Both the position numbers and the translations under genes were made by a program. A stretch of 64,000 nucleotides of DNA, taken from positions 2,009,606 through 2,073,605 of the forward strand of contig GG745330.1 of NCBI GenBank assembly GCA_000151295.1, given 5' to 3'. The notes beneath the pieces were generated by a model that worked only from the letters and a program-made list of their open reading frames with translations, made no database searches and was not told where the DNA came from. Below, in pieces: positions 39,231 through 56,150 of the stretch (its first letter is position 1; each line of letters starts with the position of its first letter). The DNA comes from Allomyces macrogynus ATCC 38327 (Eukaryota; Blastocladiomycota; Blastocladiomycetes; Blastocladiales; Blastocladiaceae).

Positions 39231-39256
39231 TGGCGCTGCCCTTAAGGGCAGCGCCA
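39231..39256. repeat. Terminal 26-bp perfect palindrome (left)
   Basis: Two 11-bp arms (TGGCGCTGCCC and its complement) flank a central TTAA. The same palindrome closes the right end. It could fold back as a terminal hairpin or serve as the integrase recognition end. Confidence 0.85.
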
Positions 39257-39691
39257 GAGGTCGGTGGGGGGTATGGCTGAGGCGGGCGAAAGCCGGTACG
39301 GCTGAAGCAGGCGAAGCGGGGGCGGAAGCCGGTACGGCTGAAGCCGGGGCGTCGAGCGGTAATAGGCATGGCTGGTACATTGGAGTGTCGGAACTACAGC
39401 CTCCGCCCTGTCGGACCCCTAGAAGTACGACAAAGGTCACAACACGGGGGATACGACACGCGGACCCCACACCACAGCAATTGGCCGCGGTAATAGGTCC
39501 ACGCGCCCGAGCGAAGCGAGCCTCAGTGATGTAGCTCAGCGTAGTTCTCGCAGATGGGGCTGGGGGTCGGTCAGGGGCACAGTACCACGACAGAATCGGT
39601 GGAAGTCCGTCAGGGCAGAGTCGGGGATGCGACTGCCGAATCTCGGCGGCTGTCTTCAAGGACGGGTGTTTGCTCCTTGAGACCGAATCAA

Positions 39692-39738
39692 AGTGCCACA
39701 CTTTTGTATTCTTTATAGTGCTTGCAAAACCGTGGCAG
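39692..39738. repeat. Imperfect inverted repeat in left TIR
   Basis: A diverged copy of the hairpin at 39928-39975: AGTGCCACACTTTTG, a spacer with TATTCTTTATAG, then CAAAACCGTGGCAGC. The right-hand arm carries mismatches. Confidence 0.6.
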
Positions 39739-39785
39739 CAATCTCTCACAGTGAGGCGCACTGTTGCAGAACATCTGCCGCGATT

Positions 39786-39883
39786 TGAATCTACGAGTCT
39801 GCCCTGGAACTGAATCTACGAGTCTGCCCTGGAACTGACTCTCGAGTCTGCCCTGGAACTGAATCTACGAGTCTGCCCTGGAG
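39786..39883 (+). repeat. 25-bp tandem repeat in left TIR, four copies
   Basis: The unit reads TGAATCTACGAGTCTGCCCT followed by GGAAC; the third copy is 24 bp with CTCGAG in place of TACGAG. It is mirrored at 55498-55595 in the right TIR. Confidence 0.85.
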
Positions 39884-39927
39884 AAATCGTGGCAGCTGTT
39901 TTCCTGGACAATTGTCTGATTCTAGAA

Positions 39928-39975
39928 AGTGCCACACTTTTGTATTCTTTATAGTTCTTGCAAAAGTGTGGCACT
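39928..39975. repeat. Perfect hairpin in left TIR (15-bp arms, 18-nt loop)
   Basis: AGTGCCACACTTTTG pairs exactly with CAAAAGTGTGGCACT around an AT-rich loop. The mirrored copy is at 55406-55453. It may be a replication, packaging or protein-binding site. Confidence 0.8.
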
Positions 39976-40463
39976 AGTCTCTGTTTGCCACCCCGACAGC
40001 CGCCATTTTTTTGACAGACCGTCGGGGTAAATCGCGAGTGTAGGGCAGCGCCGGGGCTTCCAGGGCAGATAATCCGCCCAAAAATCCCAGGGCAGAAGTC
40101 AGGGCGGTGTTCCAGGGCAGAGCTCGTGGGCAGACTCTCGTGGTTGGTTCGTGGGCAGACTTTCGTGGTTGGTTCGTGGGCAGAAGTCCAGGGCAGTGTT
40201 CCCAGGGGCGCAGGTAGTTGCTGAGTTGGCCTTGGAGTCACGCCGCTCACGCTGTTGCACGCTGTCCAGTCCTTACTTGCGAGACATTTGGCCTTGAACG
40301 GCGTGCGACGGCGTGACCAGCGCGAGACACTCGGCGAAGGCGGCCTGCGGATTCCGTCGGATGAAGGGCGAAGCAAGGTGTCTTGGACTTCCGACGGAAC
40401 TGCCCATGAACCGCTGCGGTGAATGTCGATGTCGGCGCTCGTCATTGGCATCTGCCCCAAAGA

Positions 40464-40471
40464 TATAAAAG
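40464..40471 (+). promoter_or_regulatory. TATA box (TATAAAAG) of the first element gene
   Basis: TATAAAAG lies 32 bp before the ATG at 40503, just inside the left TIR. It is a canonical eukaryotic TATA element and fits rightward transcription of the first gene. Confidence 0.6.
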
Positions 40472-40502
40472 GGAGGCCCCCGCGCGAACGACGACCAGCA
40501 AA

Positions 40503-41300
40503 ATGGACGACAACACCTTCCAGATGATACAACCCGACTTCTCGACAAGCTGCACGCTTTCCTGAATGACCTCTCGTCGCGCCCGCCCGTGAGCCCCGAG
40601 CACGAATTCGGCTGGAACACGTTCATGAAATACACCAAGTCAAAATGGAAGGCGACGCACCGTGACGATATCCTGGTTATCATCCAGGCGTTCAAGAACG
40701 GACCGCTCACGTACATCCTGCAAAATCAGTCTGCACGCTACGAAAAAATCGGCACTATGGTCGCTGAAATCCGCACCAAGTACACAACGCAGATGACCAG
40801 ACTCGTGTGCGAAAACGAGCATCTTGCCAACAAAAACCTCAAGCTCAAGGCCACGATGTTCGACCAAATGAACGAACGCAAACGCCATACGTTGTGTGTT
40901 TTGTCCTTTACCCGTCCAAGACTGACGCTCCGCCCTTGCAATCGCAGATTTTTCGCTGACCTATGCGCCCGACGACCTCGTCACGCCGACGACAAAGTGC
41001 CACCGCATCGAGCAACAGCCCTTGACACGTGAGTCGACGCCCTTTTTCACGTACGACACCGACGACCTGCATGACATCGACATTGCGCCCATTACCCCGA
41101 TGCAGGACGGCACGCCGACGACGACCCCCGCGCCTACCTCGTCGACGACCACCCCCGCCAGCCCCACCCCTGTCACCTCCACGCAGAAACGCACGCGGTC
41201 GGATTCAAGTTCGTCGGATTTGTCGAGCTTGTCGGATTCGTCGAACTCAAGTTCGGACAGTTCGAGTGATGAGGAGATTACCAACACGCGTCGCGTTTGA
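40503..41300 (+). CDS. PLV protein of unknown function, coiled coil plus Thr/Pro/Ser tail; frame breaks or intron
   Basis: The ATG at 40503 follows a TATA box. The first ten codons (MDDNTFQMIQ) must shift frame near 40535 to reach a long helical segment (LLDKLHAFLNDL onward to about 40,885), which has a charged, coiled-coil character. Near 40,890-40,952 the frame changes again. The sequence there has a GT start, a CTGAC branch-like site and a TTGCAATCGCAG 3' end, so it may be an intron of about 55-60 bp rather than an indel. The last part (to the TGA at 41298-41300) is acidic and rich in Thr, Pro and Ser, ending in a Ser/Asp run. No homologue is recognised. It is the only leftward-end gene transcribed inward from the left TIR, a position often used for early or regulatory genes. 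Confidence 0.5.
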
Positions 41301-41404
41301 AAATAATGAATTTCATTGTTTACTTCCCATGTCTCCGCCAACGACAAGAGGCCACAAATAACACATTGCACGAACATCATTCGCGCAGTGTGCAAGACAC
41401 TCAA

Positions 41405-41614
41405 TCAAAATACAACCGGTAAACTGAACCGGGTGGTAGTTTTTCGCGGACTGCGGTTGGACGACTGTCCGGTGGGTTTAGGGGAATTGGCCTTAGTGGG
41501 TTCCACGACCGAACTGGTTGAGTTGGGGGTGATGGGCGTTCCTGTTGCGAAAATGTCGACGTCGCCTTCATTATTCCCTTTATCAATAAACTTGAGCAAA
41601 AAAACTAGACACAT
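41405..41614 (-). CDS. Small PLV hypothetical protein (69 aa)
   Basis: The ATG at 41614 starts 14 nt after the stop of the 31-residue membrane protein, in the same direction as the virion cluster. The N-terminus is hydrophobic (MCLVFLLKFI), the rest polar and Thr/Pro-rich. No homology is recognised, and it lacks the shared upstream T-tract motif, so it may be read from the preceding transcript or be spurious. Confidence 0.35.
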   Translation of the reverse strand: MCLVFLLKFIDKGNNEGDVDIFATGTPITPNSTSSVVEPTKANSPKPTGQSSNRSPRKTTTRFSLPVVF

Positions 41615-41628
41615 GGTGCGTTTACGTA

Positions 41629-41724
41629 TTACTCTGATTTATTTTTTACATTGTAGCCGATTAGCGCAAACTGCGACAAAACGATGACAGCGTTCATTGC
41701 AAGAATGACAACCTCGAAGAGCAT
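41629..41724 (-). CDS. 31-residue single-pass membrane microprotein of the PLV
   Basis: The ATG at 41724-41722 opens a 31-codon frame ending TAA at 41631-41629. Residues 2-24 are strongly hydrophobic (LFEVVILAMNAVIVLSQFAL), followed by a short basic tail (YNVKNKSE). It is preceded by the same TTTA plus eight-T motif used by the capsid genes, and lies 30 bp after the minor capsid stop, which supports real expression. Small membrane proteins are common among PLV and virophage virion genes; the role here is unknown. Confidence 0.5.
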   Translation of the reverse strand: MLFEVVILAMNAVIVLSQFALIGYNVKNKSE

Positions 41725-41754
41725 TGTTGTTTAGAAATGGCTCAGAAAAAAAAC
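41725..41754 (-). promoter_or_regulatory. Upstream motif of the 31-aa gene (T8 tract plus TTTA)
   Basis: Read on the minus strand, an eight-T tract followed by CTGAGCC and CTAAACAAC precedes the ATG. The T-tract begins 2 nt after the minor capsid stop codon, so it may also end that upstream transcript. Confidence 0.5.
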
Positions 41755-42519
41755 TTAGATAAAATCAATCGTGACGTACCATTCAGCCCCCATGAAGTTC
41801 AACTGCTGGAGCTTCTCATCGCACAGCGTAATGTCGATATGGCTAACCAGAATTGGCTGGTCACGGCTCATGTGCATGTACGACGATTGATGAGGTCTGT
41901 ACTCCATGTAATGACCAGTCGGAGCCAGCACATAAAAACTACAGAGTACCGAGTTGTCAGATGGAAAACTGGAGTGGATGTTGTCGCGTAGCATCGTACC
42001 GAGATTCACGGAACGCACATTCACAATTTTGGTGTCGATAAGGTTGATGACATGGTTCCCAGTCTGCACGTTACTGTACACGCTACTGAGCTTATCAAAC
42101 CCCATCAAATCGTATGCTGAGTTTGGGCCTGGTGTCAAAATAAATGGGTCGCCACCAGTGTTGATAATACTGAGTTGATTTGTGACAGAGTCCAGGGCGA
42201 CGTCAAACACCCCGTTCCAAAAAAATGGGGACGTGGCTGTATTTGCATTGAGCTGTTGTTTAAGAGCTGCGCTAAACGATGTTGCGCTGTAATTGCCCTG
42301 TGGAATCGAAACCCAGCCAGGCTTAAGGATACCCAAAGGGGTTTTCTGCGTGATATACACAGTGTTCTTCGAGTCGGTAACGTTATACCAACTGTGACAA
42401 AAGAACGCCGAGTTCACACGACACGCGTGGACCTCAATTGGAACTGGGAGTTGGTAGCGATTCTGAACCAAATCGGTTGAGCAAATAGTGACTGATTTGT
42501 AGTTCGTGGTGTCAAGCAT
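41755..42519 (-). CDS. PLV minor capsid (penton) protein
   Basis: This 254-residue protein starts at the ATG at 42519-42517. Its length and its beta-strand-rich pattern (VTICSTDLVQNRYQLPVPIE at the start, WYVTIDFI at the end, with alternating hydrophobics throughout) match the single jelly-roll penton protein of PLVs and virophages. The motif KPGWVSIPQGNYSATSF, matching the phrase 'I..G.YS...L...L' in such proteins, supports this. It would form the pentameric vertices of the icosahedral shell. It lies downstream of the major capsid and 82-residue genes on the same strand, the usual virion-cluster order. The call rests on fold pattern and context, not on alignment. Confidence 0.75.
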   Translation of the reverse strand: MLDTTNYKSVTICSTDLVQNRYQLPVPIEVHACRVNSAFFCHSWYNVTDSKNTVYITQKTPLGILKPGWVSIPQGNYSATSFSAALKQQLNANTATSPFFWNGVFDVALDSVTNQLSIINTGGDPFILTPGPNSAYDLMGFDKLSSVYSNVQTGNHVINLIDTKIVNVRSVNLGTMLRDNIHSSFPSDNSVLCSFYVLAPTGHYMEYRPHQSSYMHMSRDQPILVSHIDITLCDEKLQQLNFMGAEWYVTIDFI

Positions 42520-42541
42520 GTTTTTACAATTTGCAGAGAAT

Positions 42542-42790
42542 TTAATTTACTGCATCGCCAGGGTCCTGCTCTTTATTATACCAGTCCCATGCGTCTTGAG
42601 CCAGGTCCGCGCCACGCTCGACAAGGCTTGTAACGGGCGACCAGGCTGGGTTCACCCGCGACGCCCATCGCGCTACAGTTTTGATGCCTTTAAAGACTAA
42701 CGGCGCGTTCTCATTAATCACGCGACCAGCATTCATCAATGTTGTTGTTAGTGGTTGGACGTAGTTGGTCCAGATGTTCTTTAGCCACAT
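42542..42790 (-). CDS. Small PLV virion-type protein (82 aa)
   Basis: The ATG at 42790-42788 follows the shared T-tract/TTAAACA motif. The product has amphipathic helices rich in Trp (MWLKNIWTNYVQPLTTTLMN; WASRVNPAWSPV; DAWDWYNKEQD). Its place between the major and minor capsid genes suggests a minor virion or membrane-active component, like the small pVI/pX-like proteins of related viruses; that is inference only. The reading frame is intact and its stop lies 22 bp before the minor capsid ATG. Confidence 0.6.
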   Translation of the reverse strand: MWLKNIWTNYVQPLTTTLMNAGRVINENAPLVFKGIKTVARWASRVNPAWSPVTSLVERGADLAQDAWDWYNKEQDPGDAVN

Positions 42791-42827
42791 GGTAGGGGGT
42801 GTTTAACAAGTGGTTACGAAAAAAAAT
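42791..42827 (-). promoter_or_regulatory. Upstream motif of the 82-aa gene (T8 tract plus TTAAACA)
   Basis: Minus strand: eight T, CGTAACCACTTG, then TTAAACACCCCC and the ATG. It matches the element upstream of the major capsid gene almost position for position. Confidence 0.6.
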
Positions 42828-42851
42828 TGAAGTTAAAGACAGTGATCCTTT

Positions 42852-44111
42852 TTAGCGGGTTACCTCTACCTCCCCTGTCCCCTTGAAAGTCACCATGTAA
42901 TCAAGGTGAACATAAGCCGAGACATAACACTGTGGATGCGATGCGGCAAGGGTCTGGACGTACGCATAAATATCAACGTTGTTTTCCTTGTGCAGAGTAA
43001 GACCGCTGATGAGTGTGCGTGAAGACTCGAACTCGCGCATGAGCACAAATGACGAGTCAGCAGTCGTGGTTGATGGCGCCCATAGAGCAGGGGTCATGCG
43101 CCAGCCTACCGCACGGTGGTGAAGGGCATCCTGCGCCTCTTGGTAAAAAGTGGTCTGCAAAGTGTCGCTAGCAAGGGGGGTCGTTGGGATGGTGCGTCCC
43201 GCCACTGACCATTGAGCCTGTTTAATGATATTACTGTATTGGTAAAACTTCTCAACGCCAACACCGTCCCCGTCAACAACGTCCTTCGTTTGAGTGATAA
43301 TAGTGATGTCCTTGATTGACGAGTCGCGATTGCTGACAGTCAAAGCTGCGCTTGGAGTGTTCCACATAAGCGGGCATAGGGCATAAGTTGAGCCGTAGAG
43401 GGTAAGACCACTCTCCTGGAACACCCGGTCGTAGTAAGCATCCTGGAAGTCCGAGTAACTGATGCAATTGGCCGAGAAATAAGGGTCGTCGATGGTGTAA
43501 GACGAGTTGCTAATGACGTTTGCTGGGTTGTATCCTGTCTGGCGCACAAGGCATTTCACCGAATCCTCCAAAACCAGCTCGACCACCAATGACCCGAAGT
43601 ACTTGAGAGGAAGCGCCTTACCGTTACCAAGGATAGCTGACAGCGTCAGCGGCAAAAAGTACGTTTTCTGGACCGTATCGTCGGTTGTGTCAGATTTGTT
43701 GTAGCCTTGAGCGATGGCCAGAGGGCCTTGGCGTAAATCCTGTGTGACGGTCATTCCAGCAAGGCACGATGCAATCAAATTGTAGCCTGAGATAGATTCA
43801 ATGAGCTGGTTGTTTTTCGCATACACATTCAGGGTCTTGACCACTCCGTGAATCCCTTCAGAGAAGCGAGTCTTTGCAACGTTGGTCTTGGCCTTGAACA
43901 CGACTCCAGACGTCTTTGTGTCCATGAAAAGAGCGACGTTCGGGATGGGGATTTTAATTGAGCGCCCGCCGTTGAAACTCGTGCCGTTCTGCGATGGGAA
44001 CTGTGTTGACACACGTTCACCATCAGGCGCCATATTTGGAACGCTGTACTGCGTAAAGGGGTCGGCTGAAACAGGGGTGAGCTCGTTGAACTTGCGTGAA
44101 CTTGTTGACAT
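42852..44111 (-). CDS. PLV major capsid protein (double jelly-roll)
   Basis: This 419-residue protein starts at the ATG at 44111-44109. It has the size and strand-rich composition of the double jelly-roll major capsid proteins of PLVs, with an N-terminal region (PVSADPFTQYSVP, IKIPIPNVALFMDTKTSGVV) and a C-terminal second barrel ending HLDYMVTFKGTGEVEV. It should form pseudo-hexameric trimers in a T-number icosahedral capsid. It lies directly downstream of the packaging ATPase and upstream of the 82-residue and penton genes on the same strand. The reading frame is intact. Upstream are the T8 tract and TTAAACACTCCCC motif. Assignment is by fold pattern, length and gene order. Confidence 0.85.
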   Translation of the reverse strand: MSTSSRKFNELTPVSADPFTQYSVPNMAPDGERVSTQFPSQNGTSFNGGRSIKIPIPNVALFMDTKTSGVVFKAKTNVAKTRFSEGIHGVVKTLNVYAKNNQLIESISGYNLIASCLAGMTVTQDLRQGPLAIAQGYNKSDTTDDTVQKTYFLPLTLSAILGNGKALPLKYFGSLVVELVLEDSVKCLVRQTGYNPANVISNSSYTIDDPYFSANCISYSDFQDAYYDRVFQESGLTLYGSTYALCPLMWNTPSAALTVSNRDSSIKDITIITQTKDVVDGDGVGVEKFYQYSNIIKQAQWSVAGRTIPTTPLASDTLQTTFYQEAQDALHHRAVGWRMTPALWAPSTTTADSSFVLMREFESSRTLISGLTLHKENNVDIYAYVQTLAASHPQCYVSAYVHLDYMVTFKGTGEVEVTR

Positions 44112-44147
44112 ATTGGGGAGTGTTTAATTACGGTTTAGAAAAAAAAG
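44112..44147 (-). promoter_or_regulatory. Upstream motif of the major capsid gene (T8 tract plus TTAAACA)
   Basis: Minus strand: eight T, CTAAACCGTAA, TTAAACACTCCCC, then the ATG. The T-tract sits just after the stop of the ATPase gene, so termination and initiation signals may be combined. Confidence 0.6.
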
Positions 44148-44148
44148 T

Positions 44149-44938
44149 TCATTGTAACCAGTGTTTAAATGAGTCGTTGAACCTATATTCAATTGGGTTC
44201 TGGTTATTGATTACGAGAAAAGGCCGCCCTGGCCCCTCAAACAGGTCCTCGACCATTTCAAAAAACGCATTTTTACTTAGTTTGGACGCGTTCTCAAGGT
44301 AAATTTTTTCAAGTTGCGCCCTGTTCCAGGTGGGAAAAAGGATAATACCAGAGTTGTTTGCGCGAATTGCTGGCGGGATGCTCGTCCAATACTGCACCGA
44401 AAAAATCACACTACATCTGTAGTGGCGTGAGTTTGCTATGAAGTTTTGCAAATGGGTCTTTTAAGAACTTGAGTCCAAGACAATCGTCGAAAATCAACAA
44501 CGTACGGGGTAGCGTTTCCTTGTCGTGTTTTTCCTCAAATCGTTCTTTATACGCGTCCCGAATTTTCACAAGTTCCTTCATGAACGCACGTGGTTCGGTG
44601 TGATACTCGTGAATGCGCTGCGCGTGGGGGTCGTCGTCGTCGCCCACTGGAACAACTCCTGCTGGATAGTCGATTTTCTTGCGGCGCAATACGGGCTCCT
44701 TGAGGAGCTTCCGGTACTTGCTGTCTGACCATAGAGTCGGGCAGAATATGACAATGCGGTCGAAATAGGCCCTGTAAAAATCATTGCCCGCGATTAAGTT
44801 GTAAACGATTGTCGATTTGCCCTGTCCTTTTCCTCCCAATAGCATCAAAGAAAACTCTGGAAGCAAAATGGGGACTGGGTCTTTATTCCTTTGGTTAAAT
44901 TGGCCGTCATCGACGGGCTTGATATCAAATGTTCGCAT
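44149..44938 (-). CDS. FtsK/HerA-type genome-packaging ATPase, split by a one-base frame break
   Basis: The ATG at 44938-44936 opens a 175-codon frame with Walker A GGKGQGKST (about 35-43), FDRIVIFCPTLWSDSKYRKL and the Walker B TLLIFDDCLGL. It then goes out of frame at a three-T run (44450-44452). The remaining 100 residues continue in the next frame with NFIANSRHYRCSVIFSVQYW, including the RH..(C)S...Q sensor-like motif of PLV/virophage ATPases, and end at 44149. Total length would be near 260 residues, normal for the family. It would pump DNA into preformed capsids. Either one T is missing in the assembly or this copy is inactive. It sits between the coiled-coil protein gene and the major capsid gene. 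Confidence 0.8.
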
Positions 44939-44963
44939 CCTTTAATTATGAGCACAGAAAAAG
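44939..44963 (-). promoter_or_regulatory. Upstream motif of the ATPase gene (short T tract plus TTAAAGG)
   Basis: Minus strand: a five-T tract, CTGTGCTCA, then TAATTAAAGG and the ATG. It is a weaker version of the motif before the capsid genes. The T tract follows the stop codon of the 511-residue gene. Confidence 0.4.
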
Positions 44964-46499
44964 TTACCATTTGACTGGGGCAGTGAGTGGCTTCCTGAAT
45001 TCGATGGGCTTGCGCGGGGGCGGGGTGAACGCCGGGCGCCCGACGTCGCGCGTTGAATACATCCCTGTAAGACGGTTGTCGTACCGGTCCTGACGCTCGA
45101 TTGCCTTCTTATTCTTGATACGCATAATCCTCAGCATCTCGTTCAAGATTTTCTCCACGCCGTCGTTTCCATCACCATTGCCACTCGATGTGTTAATGGC
45201 AACCGTCAGTTGAGACGACAGATTAACAAGCTCTTCACGGATTCCGTTGGTGTCGCTTACAGTTGAAGGAATGTTTTTGATGGCGTCGACGATGTTCCGT
45301 GTCGACTCGTTGATTTGTGCCTGGGAATTTTGGGCTGCCGACTGCTGCGCCCGAATTAACACATCGCCTGTGCTCTCAATGGCCTTCGTCACTGACAACA
45401 TGCTGGCCGTCTGCGCATTGACCGCGCCCACAACTGCATTTTGCTGGGAACGAACCTCGTCAATGATACCTTGAGCCAGCGACTGCATTTGCTGGTTGCT
45501 CGCAATATCCTGACTTGACATCAACTGGCGCGTGTATTCATCTGCGATTCGTTGGCGGTCTGATGCAGAGTTGATGCTGTCGTAAATGGCGGTGAACGCG
45601 TTCGTGAGACCCGACAAAAATTCCTGGGGCAATGACGCTGTTGTCTCGACATTCGTGAAATAATTATTAATGACACTTTGTGTGCGCGCGTCGACAAAAG
45701 ACTGGCGGCTGTCGACATATGTGTCTTGTTTGATGTTTTGCGTGTTGGTCTGAGCCAGGTAATTGAGCTCGTTGTAAGTAAATGCGTTGTTCTGCGAGTA
45801 TTCCACTGCGGGTACGTGGCCTGGTTTATAGAACGGACGTGGTGGTTGTGTAATCGCGTTCCCCATCTGCGGAATCACGGCCACTCTGTCTCCATCACGA
45901 ACGACCAGTCCACTGCTGCTCGAGGCCGCTGACACGTCTGCAGCTTCATAGCGGCTCATCCCCCCTGGGACAAGCTGCGTTTCTGTAGCCACGGACACCG
46001 CCACCGGCCCTGCTTCGATTGGCGACGCGAATTCCTTCTCTACGGGAGCAATCGGCACGACTGCGCGCGACAGGTCCTCCTCATTTGGTGTATCTGGCTC
46101 GACGTCAAGCTGCATTGGTGTGTCCCCTTCGATTGGTACGCGGCGACGCGTCGACACCTCGACCCTCGTGTTGGGCAACACAAGGTCGCGGATTTCCTGT
46201 TCCACCTGCATCCTGGTAGAGGCCCTGTCACTTGCCACGTTCAGCTCTCCTCCCTCCAACAAATAAGGCACGGCGCTCTTCACTTGTGGCACTGTGTAGA
46301 AGAGGTACGTTTTACCTTTGACGTCCACGATAAACTTACGGCCTTCGCGTGAGGCCTGCACGCCAGGTAATTTATTCAACGCGCGAACCGCAGCAGATGG
46401 GTCTTTGACGTTTGGGGGAATGGCGTGTTTAAACTGAACAACTTGTGAGTTAGCTGTTGATTTCTTTTGTGAGTTGTCTTTTCTTGGAGTCCTTCCCAT
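44964..46499 (-). CDS. Large PLV virion-type protein with coiled coils (511 aa)
   Basis: The intact frame starts at the ATG at 46499-46497 with a basic, Ser/Lys-rich N-terminus (MGRTPRKDNSQKKST). A small ordered segment follows (AAVRALNKLPGVQASREGRK). A Pro/acidic linker covers about residues 100-240. From about 260 to 450 it is helical and Gln/Asn/Ala-rich with coiled-coil periodicity (EFLSGLTNAFTAIYDSINSA, QSLAQGIIDEVRSQQNAVVG). The C-terminus is basic and Pro-rich. No enzymatic motif is visible. Its position at the head of the capsid cluster, next to the ATPase, suggests a structural or core-organising role; the function is unknown. Confidence 0.6.
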   Translation of the reverse strand: MGRTPRKDNSQKKSTANSQVVQFKHAIPPNVKDPSAAVRALNKLPGVQASREGRKFIVDVKGKTYLFYTVPQVKSAVPYLLEGGELNVASDRASTRMQVEQEIRDLVLPNTRVEVSTRRRVPIEGDTPMQLDVEPDTPNEEDLSRAVVPIAPVEKEFASPIEAGPVAVSVATETQLVPGGMSRYEAADVSAASSSSGLVVRDGDRVAVIPQMGNAITQPPRPFYKPGHVPAVEYSQNNAFTYNELNYLAQTNTQNIKQDTYVDSRQSFVDARTQSVINNYFTNVETTASLPQEFLSGLTNAFTAIYDSINSASDRQRIADEYTRQLMSSQDIASNQQMQSLAQGIIDEVRSQQNAVVGAVNAQTASMLSVTKAIESTGDVLIRAQQSAAQNSQAQINESTRNIVDAIKNIPSTVSDTNGIREELVNLSSQLTVAINTSSGNGDGNDGVEKILNEMLRIMRIKNKKAIERQDRYDNRLTGMYSTRDVGRPAFTPPPRKPIEFRKPLTAPVKW

Positions 46500-46531: not shown

Positions 46532-46660
46532 TGGAATTCCGTCTGAAAATGGAATTCCAAGTGGAATTCCAAGTGGAATTTGGGCGGAAAATGGAATTCC
46601 AAGTGGAATTTGGGCGGAAAATGGAATTCCGTTTTTCTAAAACTGGAATTCCAACGGTGC
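46531..46660. repeat. GGAATTCC-containing tandem repeats within the PLV
   Basis: Seven or so GGAATTCC/GGAATTTG boxes occur in about 130 bp. Two near-identical 30-bp units (AAATGGAATTCCAAGTGGAA then TTTGGGCGGA) are flanked by partial copies. The array covers the 3' end of the 105-residue gene and the gap to the 511-residue gene. Open frames through it on both strands are simple repeats and probably not proteins. Confidence 0.8.
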
Positions 46661-46954
46661 ACTGCTGTTCCTGTCTCCAGTTGGCTTTGTGATGCCAAAT
46701 TTCGCATAAACATCGGCCATCCGTTCCCGCTCGCGCTGCAAAAGCTTGGTCTTCATCCTCATCCGCTGAACAGCAGCACGGTCGTATTCATGGTCGTGGA
46801 CCGACCAAAGGCCCCGGACCCTCAGTTTTTGTTTGATGTATTTTTCCTTTTTTTGTGGCGTCTTCAGGGTCCACCATGCTGGCAACTCGAGCGCCCCTGT
46901 CAGTATACGGTATTGGTCGTCGGCGCCAAGTTTGGCAAGCTTGAATTTGTCCAT
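46637..46954 (-). CDS. Small basic PLV protein (105 aa)
   Basis: The ATG at 46954 opens a Lys/Arg-rich, helical protein (MDKFKLAKLGADDQYRILTG; KTPQKKEKYIKQKLRVRGL; RMKTKLLQRERERMADVYAKF). It is divergent from the fibre-like gene, whose ATG is only about 32 bp away, so the two share a very compact promoter. The last codons run into the GGAATTCC array. No family is recognised; a DNA-binding or core role would suit its charge. Confidence 0.5.
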   Translation of the reverse strand: MDKFKLAKLGADDQYRILTGALELPAWWTLKTPQKKEKYIKQKLRVRGLWSVHDHEYDRAAVQRMRMKTKLLQRERERMADVYAKFGITKPTGDRNSSAPLEFQF

Positions 46955-46986
46955 GGTTTTTTTCCTTAGTCTATAGTAACAAAAAA

Positions 46987-48930
46987 ATGTCGATGAATAT
47001 TTTCAATGAAACGCAACAGTCCAGCCAAAAAGCATACACCAATGACGACCTCGATGCAGTCATTACCCAGCTGAATCTTGCGACGCCAACCGCGTCAAGC
47101 CAAGCTGCAACAAAGGGGTACGTTGACCAAAAGGTTGCCGATGTTGTGGCCGGGGTAGCCGCGCCAATCTTCGCCACAGCGCCCCTGCAAATCGCCTCTA
47201 ACAACATCTCATTTAACGCAGACGCATCGACGTTCACAACCACAGGGGGTATGCTGACAATCAAAACAGGCGGCGTGACCAGCAGTCAATTGGCAAGTGG
47301 TATCGATGCCTCAAAATTGTCAGGTCAGCTTCTTGTGGCAGTGTTGCCGGACGTGTCAAGTAAAGTCTCGTCTGTATCTGGGTCAATCATCACATCAAAC
47401 TCAATCCCAAGCACTGCACTTGTCGACGTCTCGACATCGAAACTCACGGGCACACTCAATGCTTCGTCCTTCGGTGACAACACAATTGCCAGTTCAAAAT
47501 TGATTAGTGTCGATTCCGCCAAGCTGGTCAATACCGTTCCGTCCGCGTTGCTGAGCGTCCCCGACACCTCAATCATCTCTGTCGATGGCGCAAAGGTCAC
47601 GGGCGTTCTTCCATTGAGTACTATTCCGTCTGGCTACGCAACGTCCGCACTGACAGGCACAATCAGCAACACTCAGCTGGCGCCCGGAATCGATGGAGGC
47701 AAGCTGTCTGATGCGAGTATCGGTAGCGCCAAGATTGTCTCCATTGACGCTGCGACCAAGGTCACTGGTGTTCTTCCGCTGAGCGCCATCCCATCTGGCT
47801 ATGCGGCGTCCGCACTGACAGGCACAATCACCAACACACAGTTGGCAAGCGGTATTGATGCTTCGAAAATCACTACCGGGGTACTGCCCTTGTCGGGAAT
47901 CCCGACCATTCCAGTCTCGAAACTCGACCTGTCAACTCAAGTGCAGGTGGCGTCAACCGCTGATTCGACAAGTACGACTACGGGAGCGCTGACAGTGACA
48001 GGCGGTGTTGGTATTGGCAAGAGTCTTTTTGTTGCTGGTCAACTTGCTGTCAATTCGACTCTCGCGACAACGTCCAAGTCAACAGGCGCGCTCATCGTGC
48101 CAAATGGCGGCGTGGGATGTAACTGGTTGACGACAACTGGGGTCTACGTGTTTGCCCCAGGCAATGCCTCGCTCACGCTCAAGTGCAACGAGGGTGGGAG
48201 TGCGAATGGCGTGGGATATATCGACATCATGTCTGACTCGGTAAAGAAGTTTAACATTGCGTTAACACGAATGCGTCTTATGGGTACGGCGAGGTAGGCA
48301 CGGCGAGCGGGGCGTCAATGCAGCTCGCGACAACTGGAAACGTGGCCATTGGCGCTGCTCCAAACACGACGGGCGCCAAACTCCAAGTCAATGGGCCGCG
48401 TCGCCGCGTCAGATGCTGTGAACGCAAACGAGTGTGTGACACTTCAACAAATCCAGGGGAGTTCTTTCTATGCCATCCCATGCCGCTTCTCGATTGCGCT
48501 TGGCACGTCATCGTCAGGGCGCACAATTGATGGGACATGGCAGTCTTTCGACCAAACACCGAACAGTTTCAGTGGCGGCGGTTCGTCAAATTACTCTGCG
48601 GGGTCGAGCGGGCAGTTCATCATGCCAAAAGGAACGTTCTTGATGACATTCTATGTGTCGCTCATTCAAGTGCCTGGTCCTCAAACTGCCCCAGCAAACG
48701 TCGTGTTGAACTATCGTGCGGTGTCGTTTTCGGGCGGTACAACAATTGATGGGTTTCCTGCTTTCGCCGTGGCAAGCACGTATGGAGTGGCCATGCAGGC
48801 CCAGGTCTTCACCATGGTCGTCACAGTCCCCACAGCAAACAAAGCCCTGAATTTGCAGGCGCAATGCCCTAATGGTACGTTGACTTCTTATACTTTGGGA
48901 GGAACCGTGGATGTTGTTCGCATCGGCTGA
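46987..48930 (+). CDS. Fibre-like repetitive virion protein, two frame breaks
   Basis: The ATG at 46987 opens a long Ser/Thr/Ala/Gly-rich protein with tail-fibre hallmarks: ATKGYVDQKV near the N-terminus, then repeated blocks (GVLPLSTIPSGYATSALTGT, GVLPLSAIPSGYAASALTGT, and LASGIDASKL/LAPGIDGGKL) of about 40-50 residues. A segment with TTTGALTVTGGVGIGKSLFV, common in phage and giant-virus fibre shafts, follows. Coding continues past a frame break at about 48283-48286 (one base short) and another in a three-G run at 48393-48395 (one base extra). A C-terminal globular domain runs to the TGA at 48930. It is the only virion-type gene on the plus strand. A host-attachment role is inferred from the architecture. 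Confidence 0.65.
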
Positions 48931-48975
48931 GAGTTGTATTACGATTAAATTCATGCAGCTTTGCAAAAAAATGGT

Positions 48976-50109
48976 TTAGTTCATCGCAAGCTCTCCATAC
49001 CGAATGGGAACTCGGCGGATACGTGTGGATGGTTCGCGTCGCACCGGCGGGCCTTCGTACACAGGTCGTGGAGCGCGGGTCTTTGTTTGTTTTTCTGGTG
49101 TGTACGTCTGAGTATCCGTAATGACCTGAAGTTCACTACGGCTCCAGAAACGTGCCACTCCATCCACCTTGTAACTCGCCGTCGAAACGCCACTCGGTTT
49201 GCGCACTGTCGTTATGGTGTGGATTTCCTCTGACCACAATGGCTGGTTTTTCTTTTCGAGTGTTGATTTGTACTGAATTCTTGTGCGCACCTTGGTGCCG
49301 ACGCTTAGCAACTCCTCCCCTGGCTGACCTGGTTTGGTACTCTTCGCCTTCACGTCAAGAAGGTGTGCCCTTGTTTCTGCTGGCGACATGCTGTCGAAGT
49401 CAGACGGTGCCTTTCCGGTGGTCCGTTTTGTTAATGTGTTGAGAGAAGTCTCACACTGGCGGAGCTGACTTGGCCAGTCTTTTGAGCCATGCGCGTCCAT
49501 CCACATTATTAGATGTCGCCTCACGTTCTTGTTCATGCTCTCCACAACTGACTGGCCGAACGGCGATGAAGCACGACCGCGAATCATCGTCACATTTTCC
49601 TGACGCTCGATGGCGTTGATTTCTGTCCCGCGGTCAGAGTGAATGACCGGGTTCTGGTAGCCGCTCTCTTGTATAATATCAAGAAAGACCTTGAGACACG
49701 CTTTTTCTGTTTTTTGCCTGAGTGGCCTTAGATGGACGCGGCGTGTAGCAACGTCAACCATCACGAACACGTAGCGGTTGTTTTTAAATGTACGGGTCTC
49801 GCCGAGGTCAAGCAAGTCAATTTGAAAAGACTTCCCCTGGACGACAGAGCTGATTTGACGAATGTCAACGCGTTTTGGTGTTTGCTTGAACCGCTGGTAC
49901 ACAGTCTGTTTTTTTAGGAATCTGTCGACTTGAGCGCGGTAAAGGTGCGGTATTGATTCTGGTTTTTCTTTTTGGGCGGCCTCGAAGAGCGATTTATAAC
50001 CACTGCCCACAAACTTCGTGTAATACAAAGTGCGCAGCCAATTTTCTTGCTCTGGTGTCAATGGCAGCTCGTGGGGCCAGGTTTTTTTGTCTGTGTCTTT
50101 TGCTGTCAT
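48976..50109 (-). CDS. Retroviral-type (rve) integrase of the PLV
   Basis: The intact 377-residue protein starts at the ATG at 50109-50107. An N-terminal helical part contains QVDRFLKKQTVYQRFKQTPK, typical of Polinton/retroelement integrases. The RNase H-fold core has the acidic triad in FQIDLLDLG (D98), VIHSDRGTEI (D159) and SVVESMNKN (E190). D-to-E spacing is 30 residues rather than the usual 35. A C-terminal SH3-like domain follows (VGTKVRTRIQYKSTLEKKNQPL). No HHCC zinc site is seen. It would insert the element with a short staggered cut; the TG...CA ends and 5-bp duplication fit exactly that chemistry. It is convergent with the fibre-like gene and downstream of the tyrosine recombinase. 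Confidence 0.9.
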   Translation of the reverse strand: MTAKDTDKKTWPHELPLTPEQENWLRTLYYTKFVGSGYKSLFEAAQKEKPESIPHLYRAQVDRFLKKQTVYQRFKQTPKRVDIRQISSVVQGKSFQIDLLDLGETRTFKNNRYVFVMVDVATRRVHLRPLRQKTEKACLKVFLDIIQESGYQNPVIHSDRGTEINAIERQENVTMIRGRASSPFGQSVVESMNKNVRRHLIMWMDAHGSKDWPSQLRQCETSLNTLTKRTTGKAPSDFDSMSPAETRAHLLDVKAKSTKPGQPGEELLSVGTKVRTRIQYKSTLEKKNQPLWSEEIHTITTVRKPSGVSTASYKVDGVARFWSRSELQVITDTQTYTPEKQTKTRAPRPVYEGPPVRREPSTRIRRVPIRYGELAMN

Positions 50110-50129
50110 TTACATTTAACCGTCCAAAT

Positions 50130-51558
50130 TTATTCGTCCTTGCCTGAAAGTCGGTAGTAGTGTTTAATGGTTGCAGTTGAGTGCCCTCGCGCGTTGAATC
50201 GCTTGTGGAACTCTGCGTTTGAAATCTCTCCTTTGGCAAACAGTTGTGTGTCCCTTGTTGCGCATGCCTTGCGAAAATCCCGCACGCCAGCGCCGTTCAG
50301 TTCTGGAATCGACTTGGTTGCACCCAGGACAAGTTTACTGTAATGGTCAAATGATTTGTCCGTGTCTCCGGGGACAACGTGGGCACCAAAGACAAATTTC
50401 TGTCCCTTCGCGCGCTTCATCTCGACGTTGTGTACCAAAGCAACCCCGAACTCATCGTCCAGGCTAATGTCGATGCTGTAGCCCTTGTCGCGACACTTGT
50501 CCTTGTCTGACATGATGTTGCCTTTGATTGTGGCCGTACCGTCGTTTGCGACGCTGACATAGGGGTAGCCCTCGTCGTTCTTGGCCGTCGTCAGAAACAC
50601 AGGGTCGCAACGCAGGCCAGTACCGGCAGAGACCAACACAGCGAGAGTGGAGTCGTCGAGCTCCTCGTCAAACGCCACACCGTTAGCCCATGCCTTGGCC
50701 TGAGCGTAGGTGACTTTGAGGGGCTGATTCGCGTTGTCCACAGCTGTAATTTTGCTCCTTGTCTTCGCGGATTCGCTGTGCGCGTTCGTGCAACTTGACG
50801 ATGTCGACGTCATAGTGTGTCCCCGATTTGCGAGCCCAGCTGAGGACAGCGGCAATGCGTTTGACATAGTCTTTCTTAAGTAGCGTGCAGATTTCGTCGT
50901 GTTGCGTGGCCATGTCTAGGCCGTATGCTTGCGACTTTTCCTTGGGTTTTGAATATTCGGCAACACAGGTATTCCCTTCGAACCAGCTGCACATTTGCTT
51001 GTATTTTCCATATGTGCTCTTCTTCAGCTTTTCCTCAGCCGGCGTCATGGGGTTCTCTGGGTTACGAGCCTGGATGAAATCCATGATAATCTGTTGCATG
51101 TTGAAGTGCACGGCATCTGGTTCGACATTCTCGACCTGCCGCTCAGACTCCACATGCTCGACTTCGCGTTCTTCGACCTGCTGCTCAGACTCCACATGCT
51201 CGACCTGCTGCTCAGACTCCACATGCTCGACTTCGCGTTCTTCGACCTGCTGCTCAGACTCCACGTGCTCGACTTCGGGCTCTTGCTCGGCTTCAGGCTG
51301 GGACTCCGGCTCGACCTGCTTCTCGATGGTTTTTTTCACGCATGCCTCAAGGGCTTCCTCGAACAAGCCCTCTGTGAAGAAACGGCGAGTCGTGTCGCAA
51401 AAATCGGTACAATACTCAACGTCATCAGCAAGCAGATTTGTCAGTCGCGCGGTTTGTTTTGAGTAGTGAACCGCTTTGTCCAGCTTCGTTTCAAGCACTG
51501 CGACCTTTTCGAGGAGCGCCACAAACATGGTCTTGAGTTCTGAAAGTTCGGCGTTCAT
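50130..51558 (-). CDS. Tyrosine recombinase with repetitive acidic linker, one frame break
   Basis: The ATG at 51558-51556 opens a 291-codon frame: a helical N-terminus (LKTMFVALLEKVAVLETKLD), a Glu/Val repeat linker (51,120-51,300), and a core-binding-like helical domain (EKLKKSTYGKYKQMCSWFEG, WARKSG). At a four-base A run (T run on plus at 50750-50753) the frame shifts and the catalytic domain continues: SAGTGLRCDPVFL (first Arg), GAGVRDFRKACATR, and ARGHSTATIKHYYRLSG holding the His and the Tyr nucleophile, ending at 50130. The gene is complete but broken by one base. Such recombinases cut and rejoin DNA through a 3'-phosphotyrosine. Its stop lies 20 bp upstream of the integrase start codon. 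Confidence 0.8.
51120..51300 (-). repeat. Tandem coding repeat (EHVESEQQVEEREV) in the recombinase linker
   Basis: Units of 27-42 bp encode VEHVESEQQVE and VEEREVEHVESEQ, repeated about four times with one shorter copy. DNA copies are nearly identical, so length is probably variable among element copies. Confidence 0.75.
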
Positions 51559-51661
51559 TTTGATGATGTGATGTTATTACAGTGGTTCCAGGATTTAAAT
51601 TGGATTTTCTGGGTGCGTTTGCACGAGTCTCAAGTCCAGAGTGGATACCTGTCTAGAGTTC

Positions 51662-51684
51662 CCAGCCTTTAAATAGGAATCCGC
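51662..51684 (-). promoter_or_regulatory. Putative promoter of the recombinase gene, duplicated sequence
   Basis: CCTTTAAATAGGAATCCGC (minus strand: a TATTTAAA-type TATA element) lies about 104 bp before the recombinase ATG. The same block occurs at 55011-55033, about 106 bp before the primase-helicase ATG. Weaker similarity (GGTGCGTTTG, AGTGGATA) extends toward each gene. Confidence 0.6.
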
Positions 51685-51701
51685 GTTTAGCGCACCCTCC
51701 C

Positions 51702-54700
51702 CTAGAACACCTCGCATGCAACAAGCTCGTTAGTAATCAAAGTCGTGTTTGTGATAGGCTGATTGCAGCGAGGCTGGGTCTCGAGTTGTAGGAGATAGCG
51801 CGCCGCGACGTTGTTCAAAATCTCCCGCACAAGTTCTTGTGAGATTGCGAGTGCGTCGGTGTTTTTCGTAGGCTGGTGTGGGAATGTGGGCGGTGCCAGA
51901 ATCGCATTGGCCAGGCGCTGAATATCAATCGCTGTCTTTTTCATTGTAGACTTTGTCTGTCGTTTACCGTCTTTCTGATTGCGGTATTTGGCCACGAGGT
52001 CGATTCCAAAGTACGAGTTAACGCATTTGACGAGGAACAATGTATCGACCTTGGCTGTGCGGCGCGGTGCGAACATGTACTTGAGCTTTTCGTAGAGGTC
52101 TTCAGGGACGTCAATCTTTGAACTGTTATTCATGGCATTCGCGAGCTTTTCCATGACTTTATCAAGGCTGCCACCCACATTAACCATCAACTTGGCGATT
52201 GGATGTTCGGGGTTTGAATCAAGCTCGTGCATTTTTTCGAGCGCTGGCCCAAGCTTGTCGTTGTAAGCCATGGCGCGGTCTTTCGTGTTTAGGCGACTGT
52301 AACGTTTGTTAAATGCCTCTCGGCGGAGGTACAGATTCTCCAATGCACTCGCTGGGGCTCCGTTAAGGATTGCGGTGACGCGCTCCGGGGTCACTGGGGG
52401 GATGTTTTGGTATTTGAATTCCAAGTCATCGACTTCCACACTGTTTACCTTCATGATTTCGTCCGTGCCGCCGTAGGGCACAATCTGGAAGCCAGCGTAA
52501 TTACACATCTTTTCAAACAACGCCCAAGGCTTCTGGCCGTATCCGCGTTTGTACTGGGCGTCGCGCTCTTTTTGGATGTTTTGGGCAATCTGGTTCTGCA
52601 ACCAAGCCATATCCCCACTCCGCTGTGTGTACACATCAGAAAATTGCAGCTTGTTACCATGTCCAATCTCGTTCACACGCACAATGTACAGGTTTCTGTT
52701 AATCGGATTGCGAATGCGCCGCAAGGCTTGAACACAGTTGCGTGCTGAGATATACCCGTCGATACATGCAAACACGTCGTGGAACACGTTTTCTAAGCTA
52801 AAATTGATTCCGACTGCTGCGCAAGATGTGATGATGACGACGCGTACGTTTTCATCAGCCCAGACTTCATTGGGGTTCGTGAGTCCTTGTTTTAGCAGCT
52901 CATCCTCTGACACATAACACAGCACTTGCTTCTTTGTGAATCCAAAGTGCTTCATGATGTTTGCCTGAAGAACCAACGCACTCAGTGCGTTTTTGGTGGC
53001 GCATTTGATTGGTGCGAAGATGAAAACCTTGCGCTTCTGTTCGATTGACTTGAAGACTGCTGAGTGCATTTTTGCGGTGCGACTCACTAGGACACATTCC
53101 TTCACCTCACCTTTGCGTGTTGTGTGTTTGGATTTTGTGTCCAGGAACTCCAGCAGTTTCGTGGTCTCGGTGCGTTTGCTGTGGTCGTTCATTGTGATGG
53201 TGTACTTGCCGTGGCTTAGTGATTCGACGAAATCAGTAGTTGTTTTGGATGTCAGGGCGTCCATAAAATGCACACGTTTGGCATTGTGAATAATGGAGGC
53301 GAACATTTCGAGATTACGTTCCAGGTTTTGTTTGCCGTGGAGCTCGGGTACTGTAAACTGTTGAAGTACATTTTCGCTCTCATCAACCACAACACAGTCG
53401 TACTTCTCGGCCGCACTCCAGTCCATGCGATGCAGGGAGCAGACTGACATTCCCAATCGTCGTGAATCGCTCAGGTCGTCGGTCCACTTTGCATCAAGAT
53501 ATGTACTGAAACCTTCTGCGCGCCCCAGGAGTCCTTTTGTCAATGCACGTAATGGGCTGAACCACAGAACAGACTCACAGTTTTCTGAGTCGCGCAAGAC
53601 CACCTCGGTCTTACCACTGCCCATGTCCGAACCATGAATATGAAATTTATCGTCTGTGAGGCTATCGGCGGGCATGTAGCGAGTGTCAAAGATTTTCTTT
53701 GTTACTTGTGACGTTGGTGCCTCGGTGGTTGCGTCTTCGGCTGATGAGGTGGGTTCTGAGTGCTCTGGTAGAAGGTCTTCCATCATTAGGCGGTCGATGT
53801 CGTCATTTTGGAACACCCATGGGGCGTTGAATTCGTACCACTGTTTCACAGGGCGCACGGTTGGATATTTTTTGGTTTGCATCCACATTCCATGGTATTT
53901 TTTGACGTGCAGGCGCCGTTCTGATGGTGTTTCGTTTTGCCAACGCGCGCTGGCCCACGAAATAAACTCGTTCATTTGAATTTTGGTCGAACACGCCCAG
54001 GTCACAATACGGAACATGTCGTTGTGGGACCATCCGAGCGGCGACATGTACTGGAGCCGTTCCAGGTCTGATGCGCTGTCAAATCGCCATTCTGTCGGGA
54101 TGTTTTTCGCTTCGGCGACTGGAATAACAAGGTCGTTGCCGATTGTTGTGATTGGAGTGTGATACTTTTTTGTCATTTTTGCTTTGGTTTCTTCAGGCAC
54201 AAGCGACTCATCGAAATCCCAACACATCCCAACACTATGTACTGTGTTCTCGTCAAGACAATAGCCGTTGATATCAGAGCATTCGCCAGGGCAGCATCTT
54301 TGGGTGGGGTCCACGCGTTGGAGACAATGGGCCTCGAAGTTGGTTGGCCCCATCAATACTTTTTTGGGGATGGCGCCTGGTTTGACCTTACTCTGGTTCA
54401 ACATCCGAAATGGTCGTTCGTTGTACACACCCTCGTCAAAACCCAGAGTATGCTTGTATGCAAGGCAGAACGATTTGAGAAGGGGCGTCACGTATGGGTC
54501 GCCAAAACTGAACACATAATCCGGAAGGACAATGTGGTAACTGTTCTTCTTTTCTGATTCATACCCGGACACGTGTATGCGTTTTGCCAGCGGGAAATGG
54601 CGTCGAATGCATTCAAGGGCATCATTAAGCTCGACTTTGAGCTCACCCTCGTCCGTTTTTACATTGTCAACATCGAAGAACAGGTTTGTGATTCGAGTGT

Positions 54701-54905
54701 TGAGTAGTTGTTCAAAGAAATGGTCGTCGCGCTTGCTGCAGTGACTCGCAACATGTTTGAATGGCGCGACAAAGTAGCGGTAGACGATGTCTCCGTTTTC
54801 TTTCACGTAGTTCTGAGCAAACATGCTCATGGATTTGTCCTCCTGGACCAAACGCTCAAGGGCGGCAAGAGCTTGAACTTTTGTGGGATAGAACGTGATA
54901 TCCAT
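51702..54905 (-). CDS. Primase-polymerase (AEP) fused to an SF2 helicase, 1,067 aa
   Basis: The intact frame starts at the ATG at 54905-54903. The N-terminal domain has archaeo-eukaryotic primase motifs: LFFDVDN (D78, D80), SYHIVLPD (about 122-129) and RPFRMLNQSK (Arg 167). A Cys cluster follows (QRCCPGECSDINGYC, about 203-217). The C-terminal half is an SF2 helicase: Walker A SDMGSGKTE (near 428), VVVDESEN (near 505), ITSCAAVGINF (near 700) and QALRRIRN (near 727), the pattern of herpesvirus origin-binding-protein-like helicases. It is the only replication protein in the element and presumably initiates and drives DNA synthesis with host polymerases. PLVs more often carry an SF3 helicase or PolB, so this arrangement stands out. 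Confidence 0.85.
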   Translation of the reverse strand: MDITFYPTKVQALAALERLVQEDKSMSMFAQNYVKENGDIVYRYFVAPFKHVASHCSKRDDHFFEQLLNTRITNLFFDVDNVKTDEGELKVELNDALECIRRHFPLAKRIHVSGYESEKKNSYHIVLPDYVFSFGDPYVTPLLKSFCLAYKHTLGFDEGVYNERPFRMLNQSKVKPGAIPKKVLMGPTNFEAHCLQRVDPTQRCCPGECSDINGYCLDENTVHSVGMCWDFDESLVPEETKAKMTKKYHTPITTIGNDLVIPVAEAKNIPTEWRFDSASDLERLQYMSPLGWSHNDMFRIVTWACSTKIQMNEFISWASARWQNETPSERRLHVKKYHGMWMQTKKYPTVRPVKQWYEFNAPWVFQNDDIDRLMMEDLLPEHSEPTSSAEDATTEAPTSQVTKKIFDTRYMPADSLTDDKFHIHGSDMGSGKTEVVLRDSENCESVLWFSPLRALTKGLLGRAEGFSTYLDAKWTDDLSDSRRLGMSVCSLHRMDWSAAEKYDCVVVDESENVLQQFTVPELHGKQNLERNLEMFASIIHNAKRVHFMDALTSKTTTDFVESLSHGKYTITMNDHSKRTETTKLLEFLDTKSKHTTRKGEVKECVLVSRTAKMHSAVFKSIEQKRKVFIFAPIKCATKNALSALVLQANIMKHFGFTKKQVLCYVSEDELLKQGLTNPNEVWADENVRVVIITSCAAVGINFSLENVFHDVFACIDGYISARNCVQALRRIRNPINRNLYIVRVNEIGHGNKLQFSDVYTQRSGDMAWLQNQIAQNIQKERDAQYKRGYGQKPWALFEKMCNYAGFQIVPYGGTDEIMKVNSVEVDDLEFKYQNIPPVTPERVTAILNGAPASALENLYLRREAFNKRYSRLNTKDRAMAYNDKLGPALEKMHELDSNPEHPIAKLMVNVGGSLDKVMEKLANAMNNSSKIDVPEDLYEKLKYMFAPRRTAKVDTLFLVKCVNSYFGIDLVAKYRNQKDGKRQTKSTMKKTAIDIQRLANAILAPPTFPHQPTKNTDALAISQELVREILNNVAARYLLQLETQPRCNQPITNTTLITNELVACEVF

Positions 54906-55010
54906 CTTTGTATATTAGGAACTTGGATTATTTAATTTGGAGTTTGTCAGGTGCGTTTGAACGATGGAGCGGTTGGCTCTGGTCCAGGAGTGGATATCCT
55001 ATCAAGGGTT

Positions 55011-55033
55011 CCAGCCTTTAAATAGGAATCCGC
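55011..55033 (-). promoter_or_regulatory. Putative promoter of the primase-helicase gene
   Basis: A copy of the TATA-containing block also found before the recombinase gene, at almost the same distance from its start codon. Its distal part overlaps the inner edge of the right TIR. Confidence 0.6.
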
Positions 55034-55405
55034 AGGCCGCCTTCGCCGAGTGTCTCGCGCTGGTCACGCCGTCGCACGCCGTTCAAGGCCAAATGTCTCG
55101 CAAGTAAGGACCGGACAGCGTGCAACAGCGTGAGCCGGCGTGACTCCAAGGCCAACTCAGCAACTACCTGCGCCCCTGGGAACACTGCCCTGGACTTCTG
55201 CCCACGAACCAACCACGAAAGTCTGCCCACGAACCAACCACGAGAGTCTGCCCACGAGCTCTGCCCTGGAACACCGCCCTGACTTCTGCCCTGGGATTTT
55301 TGGGCGGATTATCTGCCCTGGAAGCCCCGGCGCTGCCCTACACTCGCGATTTACCCCGACGGTCTGTCAAAAAAATGGCGGCTGTCGGGGTGGCAAACAG
55401 AGACT

Positions 55406-55453
55406 AGTGCCACACTTTTGCAAGAACTATAAAGAATACAAAAGTGTGGCACT
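55406..55453. repeat. Perfect hairpin in right TIR
   Basis: Mirror copy of 39928-39975: 15-bp arms (AGTGCCACACTTTTG and complement) around an 18-nt AT-rich loop. Confidence 0.8.
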
Positions 55454-55497
55454 TTCTAGAATCAGACAATTGTCCAGGAAAACAGCTGCCACGATTT

Positions 55498-55595
55498 CTC
55501 CAGGGCAGACTCGTAGATTCAGTTCCAGGGCAGACTCGAGAGTCAGTTCCAGGGCAGACTCGTAGATTCAGTTCCAGGGCAGACTCGTAGATTCA
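55498..55595 (-). repeat. 25-bp tandem repeat in right TIR
   Basis: Mirror copy of 39786-39883, four units including the CTCGAG variant. Confidence 0.85.
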
Positions 55596-56124
55596 AATCG
55601 CGGCAGATGTTCTGCAACAGTGCGCCTCACTGTGAGAGATTGCTGCCACGGTTTTGCAAGCACTATAAAGAATACAAAAGTGTGGCACTTTGATTCGGTC
55701 TCAAGGAGCAAACACCCGTCCTTGAAGACAGCCGCCGAGATTCGGCAGTCGCATCCCCGACTCTGCCCTGACGGACTTCCACCGATTCTGTCGTGGTACT
55801 GTGCCCCTGACCGACCCCCAGCCCCATCTGCGAGAACTACGCTGAGCTACATCACTGAGGCTCGCTTCGCTCGGGCGCGTGGACCTATTACCGCGGCCAA
55901 TTGCTGTGGTGTGGGGTCCGCGTGTCGTATCCCCCGTGTTGTGACCTTTGTCGTACTTCTAGGGGTCCGACAGGGCGGAGGCTGTAGTTCCGACACTCCA
56001 ATGTACCAGCCATGCCTATTACCGCTCGACGCCCCGGCTTCAGCCGTACCGGCTTCCGCCCCCGCTTCGCCTGCTTCAGCCGTACCGGCTTTCGCCCGCC
56101 TCAGCCATACCCCCCACCGACCTC

Positions 56125-56150
56125 TGGCGCTGCCCTTAAGGGCAGCGCCA
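56125..56150. repeat. Terminal 26-bp perfect palindrome (right)
   Basis: Identical to 39231-39256; ends with the CA terminus next to the target duplication. Confidence 0.85.

Follow-up and report, generated by a model that had tools for sequence, protein, structure and literature searches.

How might a Polinton-like virus (PLV) copy the ends of its genome if it lacks a protein-primed polymerase? The question is raised by a 64,000-nucleotide stretch of the Allomyces macrogynus ATCC 38327 genome (contig GG745330.1; hereafter the window), which contains an element with terminal inverted repeats (TIRs), capsid genes and a palindrome at each tip (Table 1). A first-pass annotation, made from the sequence alone, had called it an integrated PLV in a zoosporic fungus, and our analysis supports that call. 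Given its capsid-forming gene set, TIRs, 5-bp target-site duplication, empty site and relatives in the genome, the element is very likely a recently integrated provirus of a PLV lineage of Allomyces (host phylum by taxonomy, Blastocladiomycota). A PLV in this host is not new; what goes beyond earlier accounts is the pairing of a putative tyrosine recombinase with an rve integrase, and the palindromic tips, two features on which the first-pass annotation did not remark.

Table 1. Features of the Allomyces element and its insertion site (window coordinates).
Feature	Position	Strand	Remarks
Target-site duplication, left copy	39226..39230	.	CGACC; single copy at empty site on C9
Polinton-like provirus	39231-56150		16,920 bp; TG...CA ends; 1.1-kb TIRs
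Left TIR	39231..40355	+	1,125 bp
Left tip	39231..39256	.	26-bp perfect palindrome
Putative penton (minor capsid) protein	41755..42519	-	254 aa; position and conservation
Double-jelly-roll major capsid protein (MCP)	42852..44111	-	419 aa; predicted structure
A32-type packaging ATPase	44149..44938	-	split over two frames (44411-44938, 44149-44451); assigned through relatives
511-aa protein	44964..46499	-	open frame
105-aa frame	46637..46954	-	open frame
Fibre-like repetitive protein	46987..48297	+	436 aa; fibre role inferred from repeats
193-aa frame	48349..48930	+	open frame; possibly fibre-related
Stand-alone rve (DDE) integrase	48976..50109	-	377 aa; Pfam PF00665
Putative tyrosine recombinase	50130..51558	-	two frames: 50683-51558, N-terminal part; 50130 to ~50765, catalytic part
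Primase-helicase	51702..54905	-	1,067 aa; Herpes_ori_bp, CyRepA1
Right TIR	55025..56150	-	1,126 bp
Right tip	56125..56150	.	26-bp perfect palindrome
Target-site duplication, right copy	56151..56155	.	CGACC

Palindromic tips across a family of elements

We searched the genome with five proteins of the element and its TIR as queries. The search gave 35 clusters of matches, of which 25, counting that of the window, include an MCP match, so that the further copies the first-pass annotation had proposed to look for are indeed present. A rough grouping by identity and tips, rather than by a tree, places the window, C40:135-141 kb, C47:622 kb, C53 and C75:149 kb in lineage I (C numbers denote contigs of the same genome), C41:191-199 kb, C56, C58:57-70 kb and C65:856-869 kb in lineage II, and most remaining clusters in lineage III. 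Three annotated proteins of the strain (AMAG_17996, AMAG_17812 and AMAG_20135) are 100% identical to loci of the genome outside apparent splice joints.

The two terminal palindromes are the sole gapless palindromes of at least 20 bp in the window. Folded as a single DNA strand, the left tip forms an 11-bp stem closed by a 4-nt loop, at -15.1 kcal/mol, and all five tips folded in this way give 11-bp stems. At the element ends read, the palindrome is 25-26 bp long. Tips are also found at ends set by the TIR or by homology (C40, C47, C48 left and right, C42 right), as well as at the right ends of C58 and C41, where the two elements cease to be homologous one base beyond the tip. The right end of C65 has a tip, with the end there placed by the palindrome itself. 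Three left ends are unreadable, in C42 through a 5-kb stretch that is all N and in C58 and C65 through N running from outside into the element.

A scan of 54 Mb with the tip pattern gave 16 sites, against 0 in a reversed control. Fifteen of these lie within 7 kb of family clusters (one cluster being a TIR match only), and the remaining site (C47:207660) leads into lineage-III TIR sequence. The arms vary by lineage (TGGCGC..., TGTCAC..., TGTCGT...) with the symmetry kept. One case is a 3,160-bp derivative at C53:365336-368495, bounded by 758-bp TIRs (99.7%) and flanked by a CGTGT duplication, which looks like a non-autonomous relative and contains, among the five proteins searched, part of the primase-helicase only. 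Compared with the window TIR at E 1e-3, it shares only the identical 26-bp tips and a 42-nt stretch (76%) outside its own TIR.

Paired changes and opposite centres

Co-variation was examined in lineages I and III, which supply 16 distinct tips out of 25 tip sites. In this set, gathered with symmetric patterns (part with up to 3 mismatches) and so biased toward pairing at fixed positions, 95.6% of cells are paired, and 4 pairs and 14 cells are changed on both sides; columns 6 and 19, which form the pair that varies most, had been left free in the search patterns. None of 500 shuffles reached the observed percentage, cells, pair types or covariation score, and 18 of 500 reached the observed number of pairs. 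Slid control structures were 28.9-42.9% paired.

The centres of the palindromes occur in two orientations. Read inward, 17 lineage-III tips have the centres TTGA (6), TCAA (7), TTAA (2), TCAG (1) and TTGG (1), and TCAA is the reverse complement of TTGA. The right tip of C48 and that of C61 are identical over 22 arm nucleotides and 95 inner nucleotides and have opposite centres; tip inversion is the simplest single event to account for this difference, the alternative being two point changes. In lineage II, the C41 and C58 tips differ at the central base alone, which fits either an inversion or one point change. The window's own tip is symmetric and therefore uninformative on orientation.

A possible hairpin reading of the ends

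Copying one arm from the other preserves the symmetry of a palindrome and can flip its centre. On this ground we infer, with a probability of roughly 0.45, that viral replication involves linear DNA with ends that fold back as hairpins. Each terminal palindrome would be copied from itself and could emerge in either orientation, and such ends would replace the protein-primed ends of Polintons, for whose DNA polymerase B no match was found in the element frames scanned (13 Pfam, 10 PHROGs). Two observations weigh against a flip of this kind: the two ends of C74 share one centre, as do those of C72, and the left centre of C48 is TCAG.

The palindromes could instead be recognition sites of the integrase alone, an rve dimer or tetramer binding one dyad per end, which would be silent on replication. 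Their position exactly at the TG/CA tips used in joining, and the retention of the tip in C53 though the remaining TIR differs, agree with this account, and we regard it as a real possibility that falls short of probable. A binding site does not, however, predict a centre inverted beside identical inner DNA, nor would it readily explain arms that differ among lineages with the symmetry retained.

Accounts of hairpin-ended poxviruses, phage N15 and adeno-associated virus ends likewise describe ends that are palindromic and that, in certain cases, occur in either orientation. For phaeoviruses, PMC13236599 proposes hairpin ends and also a telomere resolvase, an enzyme known from phage N15. Unlike these genomes, the Allomyces elements are known from integrated copies alone, and their hairpins are putative.

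Extended to the enzymes of the element, the hairpin reading becomes a scheme in which linear hairpin-ended DNA would be copied by self-priming, the tyrosine recombinase would act as a telomere-resolvase-like enzyme on replicated ends or joined genomes, and the adjacent rve integrase would insert the linear genome at a staggered 5-bp target. The scheme as a whole is doubtful; if true, it would give PLVs a way of maintaining genome ends without a protein primer. Tips whose arms co-vary and whose centres are found in both orientations offer a testable answer to the question of end replication in PLVs that lack a protein-primed polymerase, and Allomyces can be cultured.

A putative tyrosine recombinase paired with the rve integrase

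Both enzymes had been named in the first-pass annotation, and they stand unequally. The rve integrase is borne out by Pfam PF00665 at 1e-7, exactly at the cutoff; NCBIfam IS481 transposase matches at 2e-12, below the cutoff. Support for the tyrosine recombinase is weaker, and comes from its motifs and from partial, low-Z fold matches to Cre and topoisomerase IB; profile searches gave no family match. The second R, the H and the Y are conserved in all nine aligned sequences, and the first R in the window and four of eight relatives, the other four having W or Q. In the C40 relative the recombinase forms a single open frame.

A recombinase-rve pair recurs in 19 clusters (20 rows, one locus accounting for two): the two matches share a strand, and the recombinase match lies upstream, at a distance of 23-77 nt. 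For lineage II a recombinase-like frame was sought in C58, one of the four loci, where a diverged pair is present: the frame stops 30 nt short of the rve match, and hhalign aligns it with the lineage I/III profile at E 1.8e-4 but a probability of only 48, the alignment being confined to the initial part of the domain. The text of a survey of 8,300 elements reports a tyrosine recombinase and rve together only via retrotransposon insertions, and we found no description of the recombinase-rve pair or of the tip palindromes in the open-access papers searched. The conserved pair is at odds with a picture of the two enzymes as alternatives.

Perfect 5-bp target duplications are present in four of the four elements readable at both ends (CGACC, GGTGG, GTGAG, CGTGT). 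Because of these duplications we attribute integration to rve, which very probably joined the linear element ends to a staggered 5-bp target. It is very unlikely that the tyrosine recombinase integrates the element instead. PLVs are described as using tyrosine recombinases as an alternative integrase (PMC12220804, PMC4642659), but perfect duplications point to an activity that these enzymes lack according to PMC12220804, and in the window copy it is the rve frame that is open and the recombinase that is split. Since the recombinase constantly accompanies rve and palindromic tips, it may serve to resolve joined genomes or the ends produced by replication, and not to integrate, a role that we propose tentatively and consider rather unlikely.

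Borders, insertion site and age

The TIR arms are 99.82% identical across an alignment of 1,126 columns, in which a single mismatch and a single gap confirm the two differences first counted, and the TG...CA ends are flanked on both sides by CGACC, also as annotated. Fused without the element, the flanks are 89% identical to contig C9 in an alignment of 1,083 columns, and C9 has a single CGACC there. The right 2-kb flank matches C9 in three pieces (86-93%) and the left flank over its terminal 558 bases (85%), with just one weak 75% piece elsewhere on C9. C9 thus preserves a pre-insertion site at a duplicated locus. The single CGACC and the joined-flank match therefore establish that the borders of the element are real and dispose of an assembly chimera, the objection that the first-pass annotation had itself raised. 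A. macrogynus is reputed to have a genome duplication, which the C9 locus fits. On C9, a 282-aa frame (stop to stop) spans the empty site, so that the insertion may have disrupted a coding exon. The GC content in 2-kb bins is 0.48-0.53 within 40001-56000, versus 0.56-0.67 outside the element.

One substitution and one gap between the TIRs, compared with the ~11% divergence of the C9 locus, point to a young insertion, provided that the repeats were not made alike by conversion or by the assembly. The empty duplicated site and the TIR identity bear out the recent integration claimed at first pass. "Complete" holds in part: the outline of the element is complete, but two genes, those for the ATPase and the recombinase, are each broken into two frames, which the first-pass annotation had not mentioned. 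These two split genes, together with long N runs at other loci of the assembly, would suit an old, dead relic whose TIR likeness stems from gene conversion or assembly collapse. Such a relic is nevertheless highly improbable in view of the empty site on C9, the open frames of 1,067, 511, 436, 419 and 377 aa, and the CpG observed/expected ratio of the element (1.07; flanks, 1.27-1.30), which is above that of two lineage-II loci (0.95-0.97) and three lineage-III loci (0.65-0.67; the low-CpG loci include L014, L015 and L019). When seven lineage-III MCP copies are compared with their majority sequence, 178 C-to-T or G-to-A differences emerge, 104 of them at CpG, a pattern suggesting that older copies undergo methylation-linked decay.

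Two further loci have unusual arrangements. At C61:1238677-1247923 two elements are apparently adjacent or nested, with opposed genes and a tip at 1244211 between them. C75:236483-244646 looks mosaic in comparison with the window (rve 81%, fibre 78%, penton just 33%), as if lineages had exchanged genes.

Gene content and classification

The virion cluster proposed at first pass rests on a predicted MCP and on an ATPase recognised through relatives, with weaker support for the penton. The MCP is modelled as a double jelly roll, as had been expected of this frame (mean pLDDT 56, best near residues 30-110). A search with the single MCP sequence gave no match, and an MCP profile found two proteins, both from Allomyces, and no IMG/VR contig. 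Both ATPase pieces align to a single open ATPase of a relative, the first to its residues 5-160 and the second to 163-264, and open relatives match Pox_A32 at 4.8e-12 and 6.8e-9. The putative penton, assigned by position and conservation, has no Pfam match and no meaningful PDB-sequence match; it has 27 matched stretches in its own genome, itself included, usually next to an MCP match, and was aligned among 11 sequences (alignment A2).

The helicase of the annotated primase-helicase is confirmed as SF2 by Herpes_ori_bp (5.5e-15, above cutoff) and also matches CyRepA1 (1.3e-31, below its own cutoff); the primase part is putative, assigned by a motif. The fibre-like protein, which has no Pfam match, has 65 matched stretches in its own genome, itself included, and its C-terminal part recurs in other elements. 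No match exceeding a curated cutoff was obtained for the 511-aa protein (Pfam, PHROGs, NCBIfam).

At 16,920 bp with 1.1-kb TIRs, the element lies within the 14-40 kb described for TIR-bearing PLVs (PMC12220804), and its duplication within their 5-7 bp (PMC7805220, PMC12220804). A true Polinton/Maverick or a virophage would share its rve integrase, TIRs and capsid genes. We consider such an assignment improbable, as the frames scanned contain a primase-helicase and neither a protein-primed polymerase B nor a maturation protease (the latter sought with Pfam, PHROGs and NCBIfam). The 6-bp duplication that rve typically yields (PMC12220804), and that is expected of Polintons/Mavericks, was not found in any of the four readable elements.

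The text of PMC7805220, published in 2021, reports MCP, ATPase and helicase genes of PLVs in A. macrogynus. It also describes a PLV integrated in Spizellomyces punctatus, placed in a group of 27 of which about half have a chitinase gene. These reports weaken the view, taken at first pass, that the find is notable because PLVs are mainly known from algae and protists. The PLVs of PMC7805220, from the same host or another zoosporic fungus, share MCP, ATPase, helicase and integration with the present element; for Allomyces, its text is silent on ends, target duplications and empty sites, and on any recombinase pair or tip palindromes. A survey described in PMC10120064 excluded fungi. The cryptophyte PLVs of PMC12220804 have in common with the element a double-jelly-roll capsid set, TIRs, rve or a tyrosine recombinase, and phage-like fibres, whereas in Allomyces the rve is stand-alone beside a recombinase at 19 loci and the duplication is 5 bp instead of the 6 bp typical of rve. 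With several lineages in one fungal genome, Allomyces is a candidate host for studying PLVs in fungi.

Repeats and surrounding frames

Each TIR (39690-40200 in the left arm and the mirrored part of the right arm) contains short direct repeats of the CGAGTCTGCCCTGGA type and a 57-nt direct repeat (89%), possibly origin-type repeats. Short repeats rich in TGGAATTCC lie at 46529-46640, between the minus-strand 511-aa gene and the 105-aa frame. Outside the element, a 2,073-aa host frame (stop to stop) at 25729-31950 of the window stands amid further large host frames.
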